Assembly (NCBI GenBank): GCA_030630935.1
Contig: DAOVMD010000180.1
Coordinates: forward strand, 1 to 6,502
Length of the DNA stretch: 6,502 nt
Direction of reading: 5' to 3'
Source of the DNA: Candidatus Mcinerneyibacteriota bacterium
Lineage (GTDB): Bacteria; AUK180; JAQVHJ01
Position numbers and translations under genes: made by a program. The notes beneath the pieces are model-generated. The model saw only the letters and a program-made list of their open reading frames with translations, was not told the DNA's origin and ran no database searches. Shown one piece after another: positions 363 through 5,074 of the stretch (position 1 is the stretch's first letter; each line of letters opens with the position of its first letter).

Positions 363-408
363 ATCTTAGTAAAACCTTACTAAATACATGGTTGACTTTT
401 ACTAAGAT
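363..408. promoter_or_regulatory. Candidate operator: three phased TTAGTAA/TTACTAA boxes
   Basis: A 12-bp perfect inverted repeat (363-374 and 397-408) brackets the -35 region. Within it and between its arms lie three copies of one heptad: TTAGTAA at 366-372 and TTACTAA (its reverse complement) at 377-383 and 399-405. Centre-to-centre distances are 11 and 22 bp, one and two helical turns, so all boxes lie on the same face of the DNA. The third box sits in the -35/-10 spacer. Bound protein would block RNA polymerase. The winged HTH of the first gene of the operon is the natural candidate ligand; this is inferred. Confidence 0.65.
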
Positions 409-420
409 TTGTGTTATAAT
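392..420 (+). promoter_or_regulatory. Sigma70-type promoter of the HTH-NTase/HEPN operon
   Basis: TTGACT (392-397, one mismatch to TTGACA) is followed after exactly 17 bp by a perfect TATAAT (415-420). Transcription should start near 426-428, leaving a leader of only about 10 nt before the ATG at 437. This is the closest match to consensus of any promoter in the window, and it is overlaid by the heptad boxes, which suggests strong but repressible expression. Confidence 0.8.
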
Positions 421-426
421 TATATT

Positions 427-430
427 GAGG
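427..430 (+). promoter_or_regulatory. Ribosome binding site at the extreme 5' end of the operon mRNA
   Basis: GAGG lies 6 nt before the ATG at 437 and 9 nt before a second ATG at 440. Given the TATAAT at 415-420, the predicted transcript begins at about the same base as this site, so the Shine-Dalgarno sequence would sit at or within a base or two of the mRNA 5' end. Confidence 0.55.
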
Positions 431-436
431 TAAGTT

Positions 437-982
437 ATGATGATTAGTTTAAGGTCTAAGGTTATTCAAAAGGTTCTGAGGTATTTCTTTTTGAATGAGG
501 ATGCAGACATTTATTTAAGTGAGCTTGCAGGAATAATCGGAGAAGATGTAGCCAATGTTCACAAGATACTTGTTAAGCTTGAGAAAGAAGGTTTACTAAA
601 TTCGAGTTATCGTGGTAAAGAGAGGTTTTTTTTATTAAATCGAAGATATCCCCTTCTCTCTGCTTACCGTGAGATATTTTCACAAAAATTTGGTTTGCCT
701 GAATTATTAAAATCAATTTTGCGGAATATAAAAGGAATTAGCAAGGCATTTATTTATGGTTCATTTGTAGATGGTCAGTTTGATGAATTTAGCGATATTG
801 ATATTGTCATAATCGGGTCAATTACCAGAAAATTTATTTTAAGTAAATTTACAAAGCTTGAAAAGGAATTAGGCCGGGAACTAAATTTTATTTTATATAC
901 TTCAGAGGAATATCATCAGGAACAAGAAAAGGATCCATTCCTAAAGAATATTTTATCTAATAAAACCATTGATTTAGTATAA
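437..982 (+). CDS. Winged-HTH / MNT-type nucleotidyltransferase, probable autoregulating antitoxin
   Basis: A fusion protein of 181 residues. Residues ~5-68 form a winged helix-turn-helix of ArsR/MarR type: helices at 5-19, 26-34 and 36-50, then a basic wing around YRGKERFF. Residues ~87-155 are a minimal nucleotidyltransferase carrying the exact GSx10DxD signature (G108-S109, D120 and D122; bases 758-802). The late strand reads GRELNFILYT, so N150 appears to stand where many relatives have a third acidic residue, although E148 could substitute. The order HTH, NTase, then the tail 'GRE-N...YTSEEY...PFL' matches a recognisable stand-alone wHTH-nucleotidyltransferase family at full length. The stop codon shares one base with the start of the HEPN gene. 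In HEPN/MNT systems the nucleotidyltransferase neutralises the HEPN RNase by adenylylation. That, plus self-repression through the upstream boxes, is inferred. Start: ATG 437, with 440 possible. Confidence 0.88.
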   Translation: MMISLRSKVIQKVLRYFFLNEDADIYLSELAGIIGEDVANVHKILVKLEKEGLLNSSYRGKERFFLLNRRYPLLSAYREIFSQKFGLPELLKSILRNIKGISKAFIYGSFVDGQFDEFSDIDIVIIGSITRKFILSKFTKLEKELGRELNFILYTSEEYHQEQEKDPFLKNILSNKTIDLV

Positions 983-1389
983 TGAAGAACAGGAAATATT
1001 TCACAAATATAGAATTTTCTAATGAAAGTATTCATAAGTTTTTAGAGTCATCCCATCGAGACTACAAGATTGCAACAGAATCTAAGGAAGAGATTGTTTC
1101 GTTTATGTTTATATATAATAGTATTATCAAAGCATCTATTGCGTTAATGGCTCATCATGGTTTAAAGTTACGCTCAATCCCGGGACATCACAAGATTCTG
1201 TTGGAAACAGTCAAAGAATTATTAGGGTCAAAATTCCAAAGTAATCTTGATCTTTTCCAGGATATGCGAAAGCGAAGAAATTCAGACTTATATAAATGTA
1301 GTATTCATATTAGTAAGACAGAAATTAAAGAATATTTAAAAGAAGCCAAAGCTCTATTACATCACATTAAAAAATTAATAGATAAGTAA
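982..1389 (+). CDS. HEPN-domain protein, probable RNase toxin partner
   Basis: A small all-alpha, basic protein (135 residues). The central helices (FIYNSIIKASIALMAHHG), the PGHH motif at residues 67-70 and the late motif RKRRNSDLY (residues 96-104, bases 1267-1293) match the branch of HEPN proteins that pairs with wHTH-nucleotidyltransferases; I believe this is the SAV_6107-like group. The active-site signature is RxxRNxxxY: the usual HEPN histidine (Rx4-6H) is replaced by Y104, which I read as the normal state of this branch rather than decay. No signal peptide or membrane segment is visible. The ATG overlaps the TAA of the upstream gene (TAATG) and has no Shine-Dalgarno of its own, so it is probably translated by re-initiation after the antitoxin, holding toxin below antitoxin. 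RNase activity is inferred from the family. A regulatory, non-toxic role is the alternative. Confidence 0.82.
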   Translation: MKNRKYFTNIEFSNESIHKFLESSHRDYKIATESKEEIVSFMFIYNSIIKASIALMAHHGLKLRSIPGHHKILLETVKELLGSKFQSNLDLFQDMRKRRNSDLYKCSIHISKTEIKEYLKEAKALLHHIKKLIDK

Positions 1390-1665: not shown

Positions 1666-4317
1666 ATGGAAGAAACCCGATTTTTCTTTGGCAGAGAGCA
1701 TGAGCAGGCCGAGTTATTTAAAGTAATCCGATCTGCAAATAATAGTCATGGCATACTTTTTTATATAAAGGGAGAGGTTGGTACCGGAAAGACATACCTT
1801 GTTGAGAATTTTTTAGATGGAATTGAAGACCAGATAGAAATAATCAGGATCCGTGGAATTGAATACTTGAAGGATGATGCATACTTTGGTTTACGCATGT
1901 TATTAAGGTCTATTTGGAGAATTGAAGAGACATCGGAAGAAAATTTGACTGAAGTAATTGATAATTTCTTCAATTCAAATGTAATAATTTCATTTATTAA
2001 ACCTTATATAAAATGGTTTCTAAAACTCCCTCTCAATGAACGGGAACAATTTATAATTAATAATTTACAAGATTCCGATAAGCAGGACATGGCACTCGGC
2101 AGTGTAATTAATTTAATTAAATACATTTCTCATGAGAAGACTCTTGTAATATTCATTGATGATTTACATTTTTTAGATCGCTCCACTTCAGTTTTTATTA
2201 GGTATTTATCCCATGAAATTAAGAATAGAAGGATCCTCGGTATTTTTACATCCCTCCCCGAATTTAATTTGGAGAAGGAATTTAATATCACCCGGATTGA
2301 CGAGATGATTTTAACGAATTTCACAAAATCAGAGACCGGGGAATACATTGCAGCATCAGAAGATTGTGAGAAGGTTGATCCAAAATTAATCGATTTTATC
2401 TATAAACGCTGTAAAGGGAATCCCCTCTTCATATTTGAATTTATGGCGCTGATACGAGAGAAGGAATTTCTAAAGAGAGAAGATAACACCCTTACATTAC
2501 AGACTACATTCTCTAATATCCCCAATAAGGTTTCACAGATTATTCTATCGCGATATAATTACTTAAAAACTCCGTACAAGAAGCTTCTTAAGAAAGGAAG
2601 TATTTTTGGAAATGAATTTTCAGATTTAATGTTGACTAAGATGAGTGGAGATGTTGATTTAAATATCTTCCTTGATTATTTAGTTGAGAAAAAGTTCATA
2701 GAGAAAAGCCAGCATTTAGCAAAGGAATCGGAAGGTGAGAACATATATAGATTTTGTCATACAAGTATAAGGGATATAATTTATAATACAATGGCTCCTG
2801 ATGAAAGGAGCATTTACCATAAGGTTGCAGGAGAAGTATTCGAGAGAGAATTTTCCGGTATCGCAAATGATAATCTAAATATTATGATACATCATTTCAA
2901 GAAAGGTAATGTAAAAGATAAATATATTACTTATCTTTTACAGTCTGCAAAGGAAAAAGTTCAGGACTTTGAACTTTCGGAAGCAGAATCATCCTTCATG
3001 CAGCTTCTTGATGAGGGAGTAAAAACATCGGAAGTCTATAAGGGTTTGGGTGATGTATACTTTAAACTTGAAGAATACAAGAAAGCTCTCGATTATTACA
3101 ATGAGATATTTGAATTATCTGATGGTGATGAGGCTCTTACAATTGATTCTGAGATATCAAGGATAAATGTTTTGATAAAATTAGCCAGGTTCAATGATGC
3201 ACAGCAAAAGATTATTCAAGTCGAGAAATTGGTCGAAGATAAATCTGTCTATCTCAAACAATATATTAATATCCTGGACATTAAAGGTAACCTGATGTTG
3301 ATTCAGGGGATATTGGATATTGCTGAAGAATATTTCAATAAGTCCCTGGAGACAAAGTTGAAACATTATGGGGACCTCAACTTAAAAGTTGCAGATAGTT
3401 ATAATAACCTGGGGATAATTTATAGGAAAAAAAACAAGTTAAAGCTTGCTGAAGAATATATTTTAAAGGCACTCGACATTAAAAAGGAATTCCTGGGTGA
3501 GAATCATCCTGAAATTGCAGAGGTCTATAATAGTTTAGCCCTGGTCTACTGGACTGCTAATGACCTTGAGAAAGCTGAGGATTTCTTGACCATTTCAATT
3601 GAAATTAAAAAAATGATCTTTGGTGAGGGACAAGTCTCATTAGCAAAAGGTTATGTTAATCTCGGTGCTTTATATTGGAAAAAACAAAACTATATTGAAG
3701 CGGAAGAATTCTATAAAAACGCATTATGTATTTTAAAGAATGCATTTGGAGAAGAACATTCGAATGTTGCAGTATGTTATTATAACCTCGGTTTATTATA
3801 TTTCATTACTGATGATCTGAACGATGCTGAATTGAATACTAAAAAAGCTCTTGCACTCTGTCTCCTGATCTATGGCGAAGTTCATCCCGAAACTGCTAAA
3901 GCAAATAATACTCTTGGATTAATTTATCTAAGTCGGAATGAACTTAATGAAGCTGAAATACTTGAGAAAAAGGCGTTGGATATTTATGAAAATATCTATG
4001 GACACGATGATGCATTTTTAATTGATGCAATAATCAATATTGCCGAAACCCTTTCTAAGAAATCGGAATTTGATCAGGCAAAAGAATATTTGGACAGAGC
4101 TGCAAAACTGATTGAAAAACTCAATGAAGAAGATTTTCCAATTTATTATTTCAGGTTAAATTATCTCCTTGGCTTATATTATAAAGCAAAGGGAGAAGAA
4201 GATCTTTTAAGTACTACCATTTCAAATGCAAAGCGTGTCGTCGAAAAAATAAAAAGCGTCCCACTATACCCGATGCTCAAGAAACAGGTTGAAGAATTTT
4301 TAGAAGAACATGTATAA
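1666..4317 (+). CDS. AAA_16/STAND-type ATPase with C-terminal 42-residue TPR array
   Basis: A cytoplasmic protein of 883 residues. It opens with the FFGRE box (7-11) typical of AAA_16 ATPases. Walker A GEVGTGKT is at 36-43 (bases 1771-1794), Walker B VIFIDDLHFLD at 161-171 and the KGNPLF box at 250-255. A winged-helix-like segment with the FxHxxxRxxxY signature (363-373, then R381 and H385) closes the NTPase module. An isolated TPR lies around 455-486, and seven kinesin-light-chain-type TPR modules run from 533 to 826, starting at 533, 575, 617, 659, 701, 743 and 785, every one exactly 42 residues. Relatives usually add a kinase, cyclase or LuxR-type DNA-binding domain. Here there is none: the ORF starts two residues after an in-frame spacer that holds a stop at 1621-1623, and the C-terminus (827-883) is plain helix. 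It probably works as an ATP-dependent sensor or scaffold for an unknown partner. Substrate and pathway are unknown. Confidence 0.88.
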   Translation: MEETRFFFGREHEQAELFKVIRSANNSHGILFYIKGEVGTGKTYLVENFLDGIEDQIEIIRIRGIEYLKDDAYFGLRMLLRSIWRIEETSEENLTEVIDNFFNSNVIISFIKPYIKWFLKLPLNEREQFIINNLQDSDKQDMALGSVINLIKYISHEKTLVIFIDDLHFLDRSTSVFIRYLSHEIKNRRILGIFTSLPEFNLEKEFNITRIDEMILTNFTKSETGEYIAASEDCEKVDPKLIDFIYKRCKGNPLFIFEFMALIREKEFLKREDNTLTLQTTFSNIPNKVSQIILSRYNYLKTPYKKLLKKGSIFGNEFSDLMLTKMSGDVDLNIFLDYLVEKKFIEKSQHLAKESEGENIYRFCHTSIRDIIYNTMAPDERSIYHKVAGEVFEREFSGIANDNLNIMIHHFKKGNVKDKYITYLLQSAKEKVQDFELSEAESSFMQLLDEGVKTSEVYKGLGDVYFKLEEYKKALDYYNEIFELSDGDEALTIDSEISRINVLIKLARFNDAQQKIIQVEKLVEDKSVYLKQYINILDIKGNLMLIQGILDIAEEYFNKSLETKLKHYGDLNLKVADSYNNLGIIYRKKNKLKLAEEYILKALDIKKEFLGENHPEIAEVYNSLALVYWTANDLEKAEDFLTISIEIKKMIFGEGQVSLAKGYVNLGALYWKKQNYIEAEEFYKNALCILKNAFGEEHSNVAVCYYNLGLLYFITDDLNDAELNTKKALALCLLIYGEVHPETAKANNTLGLIYLSRNELNEAEILEKKALDIYENIYGHDDAFLIDAIINIAETLSKKSEFDQAKEYLDRAAKLIEKLNEEDFPIYYFRLNYLLGLYYKAKGEEDLLSTTISNAKRVVEKIKSVPLYPMLKKQVEEFLEEHV

Positions 4318-5016: not shown

Positions 5017-5046
5017 CACCGCAGAGAACGCAGAGGACGCAGAGAA
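5017..5046. repeat. GCAGAG 9-bp tandem repeat
   Basis: Three 9-bp units run from 5020: CGCAGAGAA, CGCAGAGGA, CGCAGAGAA, preceded by CAC. The CACCGCAGAG...CGCAGAGG pattern is one I recognise as recurrent in non-coding DNA of many unrelated environmental bacterial genomes. That statement rests on memory, not on a search. Its function is not known to me. Confidence 0.7.
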
Positions 5047-5074
5047 AAATAAAAAACAGAAGATATTCCTTTGC

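Follow-up and report, generated by a model that had tools for sequence, protein, structure and literature searches.

The window, the whole stretch of 6,502 nucleotides analysed here from a Candidatus Mcinerneyibacteriota bacterium, carries a two-gene MNT + HEPN operon, in which ORF1 and ORF2 overlap by one base at position 982, and a set of repeated boxes over the predicted promoter of this operon. It coincides with one entire contig out of the 471 into which the fragmented, 80% complete genome is divided, and the host phylum is represented by seven genomes in the searched set. The features of the operon are as follows:

437 to 982, plus strand: ORF1, 181 aa, winged HTH (wHTH) fused to a minimal nucleotidyltransferase (MNT), predicted antitoxin and autorepressor
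982 to 1389, plus strand: ORF2, 135 aa, HEPN-fold protein, predicted toxin
363 to 408, no strand: whole putative operator, with perfect 12-bp arms at 363-374 and 397-408 and its dyad at 385.5
366 to 372, plus strand: half-site 1, TTAGTAA (sequence reading and shuffle test)
377 to 383, minus strand: half-site 2, TTACTAA on the plus strand, inverted relative to half-site 1 (sequence and shuffle test)
388 to 394, plus strand: half-site 3, degenerate ATGGTTG with 3/7 matches to TTAGTAA, overlapping the -35 TTGACT (position from the family geometry and four-site fit)
399 to 405, minus strand: half-site 4, TTACTAA on the plus strand (sequence reading and shuffle test)
392 to 420, plus strand: sigma-70-type promoter, TTGACT-17-TATAAT with an extended -10 TG (consensus match only)
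426 to 429, plus strand: Shine-Dalgarno-like GAGG, 7 nt 5′ of the ATG (direct reading)

Downstream of ORF2, after 280 bp, an 883-aa STAND-like AAA ATPase with TPR repeats is encoded at 1666-4317 (AAA_16 and TPR_12, with an AfsR/MalT-like region), for which no DNA-binding domain was found above threshold. An intergenic dispersed repeat at 4730-4990 matches 47 other places in the genome, and a stretch at about 140-220 appears related to it by eye. A further intergenic feature at 5020-5050 is the short periodic repeat CACCGCAGAGAACGCAGAGGACGCAGAG, presumably a motif present in many uncultured genomes.

Identity of the Two Genes

A winged HTH in the first gene of the operon had been proposed in the first-pass annotation, and the AF2 model, Foldseek, Pfam, and PADLOC agree on a wHTH joined to an MNT in ORF1. 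The model of ORF1 consists of helices at residues 8-19, 27-34, and 38-50, a two-strand wing at 54-67, and then the nucleotidyltransferase, which is matched by the Pfam families NTP_transf_2/Polbeta. Foldseek retrieves the crystallised MNT antitoxin 8xeo as well as MarR/TrmBL2 regulators, and the PADLOC PDC-M05A model PDLC04368 aligns to residues 5-180 with an E-value of 4.6e-34. ORF1 falls below the cut-off of the NCBIfam MntA antitoxin model (20.2 bits vs 60).

ORF2 matches the PADLOC PDC-M05B model PDLC04379 (3.4e-14), and its AF2 model (pLDDT 92) has the HEPN protein 2hsb as the best Foldseek match, with TM-scores of 0.71/0.76. Five residues, Y45, H70, R96, R99, and Y104, are invariant in the family alignment of 18 members. 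The RX4-6H RNase motif is absent from ORF2 in this alignment; the corresponding segment reads R96-x2-R99-N-x3-Y104, and the invariant histidine H70 is located elsewhere. Among HEPN-T proteins, variants having D in place of H and a relocated His have been described (PMC3710099). At the level of sequence and fold prediction, the two genes form an MNT/HEPN pair of the PDC-M05 type, a predicted toxin-antitoxin system and a candidate antiviral one. An antiviral function of PDC-M05 itself still awaits confirmation (PMC12988326).

Boxes and Promoter in the Window

The heptad TTAGTAA/TTACTAA occurs upstream of ORF1 at 366-372, 377-383, and 399-405, exactly as first read, with centres at 369, 380, and 402, which gives successive spacings of 11 and 22 bp and 33 bp for the outer pair. 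Single copies of the heptad are also found inside genes, at 593 and 1310. The 12-bp inverted repeat claimed for this region is indeed perfect, ATCTTAGTAAAA at 363-374 being fully complementary to TTTTACTAAGAT at 397-408 across a gap of 22 bp. The promoter, described earlier as near-perfect, has 11 of 12 consensus matches, with TTGACT at 392-397, a 17-bp spacer, TATAAT at 415-420, and TG at 412-413. The statement that the repeat straddles the -35 and the spacer holds for the spacer, in which the right arm lies (397-408), but of the -35 this arm touches a single base, the last, most of the element being inside the loop of the inverted repeat.

To estimate chance, the 186 bp preceding ORF1 were dinucleotide-shuffled. 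Inverted repeats with perfect arms of at least 12 bp arise with P of about 0.005, at least three TTASTAA heptads with P of about 0.0002, and three copies of any one 7-mer class spaced by multiples of 11 bp with P of about 0.001. The array and its non-randomness are established at this level, and the pair TTAGTAA-N4-TTACTAA, with 0 or 1 mismatch, has no second copy in the 3.16-Mb genome, which gives no sign of a regulon.

The perfect inverted repeat could fold as a hairpin and could therefore be thought of as an RNA structure such as an attenuator or riboswitch, or else as a recombination site. However, transcription from this promoter is expected to begin at about 427, downstream of the repeat at 363-408, which would therefore be absent from the transcript, an Rfam search for RNA families gave no match, and homologues keep a two-turn period over four half-sites that hairpins do not need. 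This explanation is extremely unlikely; with the whole array preceding the expected start of transcription, action as DNA rather than as RNA is the most likely.

Putative Operator Arrays in Homologous Operons

Homologues came from two sources, 80 loci retrieved out of species genomes and others found by whole-genome searches, and 70 proteins sharing less than 70% identity, from many bacterial and archaeal phyla, were retained as non-redundant. Searches of small phyla contributed few further homologues. Viral contigs yielded no relative, phages one distant match, and plasmids 16 distant matches. A HEPN partner was recovered at 53 of the 70 loci, all of them among the 58 whose downstream ORF could be scored.

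In the 90 bp 5′ of the start codon of these 70 homologues, direct-repeat self-similarity peaks at lags of 21 and 22 bp (z of 12.7 and 8.0), whereas no other lag between 8 and 40 reaches a z of 3, the next highest being 2.5 at lag 11. Inverted similarity in the same regions is high at short gaps. The inverted half-sites alternate, and the pattern as a whole recurs every 21 or 22 bp, which corresponds to two helical turns. Significant four-half-site arrays (P <= 0.05) are present upstream of 57 of the 70 HTH-fused MNT genes, compared with 2 of 66 control regions at -300 to -211 of the same loci, 2 of 70 inside ORF1, 2 of 100 upstream of other ORFs, and 4 of 21 unfused MNT genes (Fisher P from 3e-7 to 8e-30). 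At 43 loci both the array and a predicted core promoter could be called, and the two overlap in 41 of them. Conservation of this geometry across the family, and of its overlap with the promoter, is established.

The first-pass annotation had looked to conserved TTACTAA-like boxes upstream of homologous operons. What is conserved there is the phased inverted geometry, in the same place, and not the TTACTAA sequence; the exact TTACTAA array was found in none of the homologues, which are at most 44% identical in protein. The box sequence varies between subfamilies while the geometry is constant. The Nitrospirota loci L087 and L088 have two tandem copies of the palindrome TTGTATTC...GAATACAA, and other loci show TATGGTA-N6-TACCATA twice (L065), TTACTC-N6-GAGTAA twice (L086), or GTTC-N8-GAAC-N4-GTTC-N8-GAAC (L013). 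Arrays are likewise present in archaea, at Methanoregula L104 and Nanoarchaeota L124. Close relatives share the array but not the sequence flanking it. Between L087 and L088, the segment from -55 to -5 is 98% identical vs 28% for the flank, and between L085 and L090 the array region is 98% identical vs 36% for the flank.

When the family geometry is applied to the window, half-site centres are expected at 369, 380, 391, and 402, and sites 1, 2, and 4 are perfect. The inverted repeat flagged earlier is the outer pair of this four-half-site array. Because half-site 3 is degenerate, the window by itself scores only borderline when all four sites are counted (P = 0.045 to 0.08). A first scoring with three consecutive sites missed the window (P = 0.995), since the intact sites are 1, 2, and 4, and a three-of-four score, devised post hoc after the window had been seen, is maximal (21/21, P = 0.003). 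The borderline score and the AT-rich character of the region could be taken to indicate chance repeats, but this possibility is scarcely credible against the shuffle P values of 0.0002-0.005 for the window features and the strong enrichment of arrays in the family over controls.

The Candidate Binder of the Array

Two further HTH-MNT/HEPN operons, L019 on contig C131 and L023 on contig C121, occur in the genome of the window, and each of the three paralogues has its own distinct box sequence, which suggests that their operators are insulated from one another. Control of the operon could instead lie with an unlinked regulator other than ORF1, such as a global repressor or a stress regulator, since phased palindromes are also recognised by winged HTH proteins from other families. 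Such a regulator is nevertheless highly unlikely, for the arrays accompany HTH-fused MNT genes and only seldom unfused ones, the boxes differ among paralogues and subfamilies, the pair is genome-unique, unlike a regulon site, and the geometry is identical in bacteria and archaea. Taken together, the tie to HTH-fused MNTs, the genome-unique pair, and the paralogue-specific boxes point to ORF1 as the probable binder of the array.

Divergence of the half-sites was also compared with that of the HTH, giving an apparently HTH-specific co-divergence with a partial Mantel r of 0.19 (permutation P = 0.0005). Box evolution simulated along the protein trees gives similar values (P of about 0.35 on the full tree and about 0.08 on the NTase tree), and covariation of HTH and box beyond shared ancestry was dropped, since the tree simulation reproduces the Mantel value. 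A sliding-window version has a weak peak over the HTH and was set aside as evidence.

Proposed Mechanism

The boxes are probably the operator through which a predicted HTH-MNT/HEPN (PDC-M05-type) toxin-antitoxin operon represses itself. The autoregulation put forward in the first-pass annotation appears right in outline and would extend to a family-wide operator. From the sequence features described above, we infer the binding of ORF1, its dimer stoichiometry and cooperativity, repression, and the toxin and antitoxin roles. ORF1, probably assembled into two dimers or a tetramer, would use its winged HTH to occupy the four alternating half-sites centred at 369, 380, 391, and 402. Since these half-sites lie one helical turn apart, both dimers would be placed on one face of the DNA, and because the array covers the -35 and the spacer, bound ORF1 would exclude RNA polymerase. 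Such exclusion could hold the antitoxin/toxin pair at a set level, and the operon would be de-repressed if free ORF1 protein were lost.

The array might alternatively serve as an activator site, or as a bifunctional one at which the effect of ORF1 switches sign with the level of ORF2 through conditional cooperativity, a behaviour common in type II toxin-antitoxin systems. In the closest relative in the class (L004/L059), TACCA/TGGTA/TACCA boxes with 11-bp centre spacing stand beside a TTGACA...TATAAT promoter, just upstream of the -35 and not over it; the sign of regulation may therefore differ in this relative, as an activator could also sit there. The overlap with the core promoter in the window and in 41 of 43 homologues favours repression, and stimulation or a change of sign is unlikely. 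Autorepression by ORF1 is the reading retained below.

Comparison with Known Systems

The operon resembles PDC-M05 in that ORF1 and ORF2 match M05A (nucleotidyltransferase) and M05B (HEPN) and are adjacent in the same order. PDC-M05 is defined by its proteins only, and no description of a PDC-M05 operator was found in the searched literature, which consisted mostly of open-access papers. With the type VII HEPN/MNT systems (SO_3166/SO_3165; MntA/HepT), the operon has in common a two-gene arrangement that pairs an MNT fold with a HEPN fold; in those systems, the toxicity of the HEPN protein is neutralised through AMPylation by the MNT. Promoter binding and repression by the antitoxin itself have a precedent in the unfused MNT SO_3165, whose promoter carries two dissimilar palindromes near the -10 and -35 (PMC4621449). 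SO_3165 is a protein of 139 aa without a recognised DNA-binding domain, whereas ORF1 has a fused wHTH; the half-sites of the window form a regular array rather than dissimilar palindromes; and the histidine of RX4-6H is replaced in ORF2, with H70 as the invariant His. The putative operator would work like that of SO_3165, yet with a wHTH-nucleotidyltransferase fusion and a regular two-turn grammar of four half-sites.

The repeats of AbiE type IV systems (AbiEi; Rv2827c) are built differently, with two 23-bp elements 3 bp apart, four of them in Rv2827c, compared to half-sites of about 7 bp with a period of 20-22 in the family of the window. The nucleotidyltransferase of AbiE is the toxin partner, whereas here it is fused to the wHTH and the partner is a HEPN protein. 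The N-terminus of ORF1 matches the fold of the MarR/TrmB-type winged-HTH repressors MepR, ScoC, and TrmBL2 by Foldseek, but its HTH is fused to an MNT and its sequence similarity is below the family thresholds. More generally, the inverted repeats over a consensus-matched operon promoter and the DNA-binding domain of the predicted antitoxin are shared with autoregulated toxin-antitoxin operators. Such operators are already well known; the family-wide four-half-site form at a wHTH-MNT fusion differs from them.

Implications for the PDC-M05 Family

PDC-M05 occurs across bacteria as well as being common in archaea, and the putative operator makes its regulation directly testable. The array supports the view that the HTH-MNT protein is an antitoxin controlling its own operon and not a free enzyme, and it offers a means of recognising intact PDC-M05-type operons. 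With slightly less than even confidence, it can be proposed that the PDC-M05 HTH-MNT proteins use one operator grammar, four alternating half-sites with a two-turn period, across bacteria and archaea, with its own box for each lineage or paralogue. They would then be insulated, co-evolving repressor/operator pairs, in which a nucleotidyltransferase antitoxin senses the state of the toxin and sets transcription. The combination of constant spacing and changing box sequence provides a natural repressor/operator set for studies of specificity.
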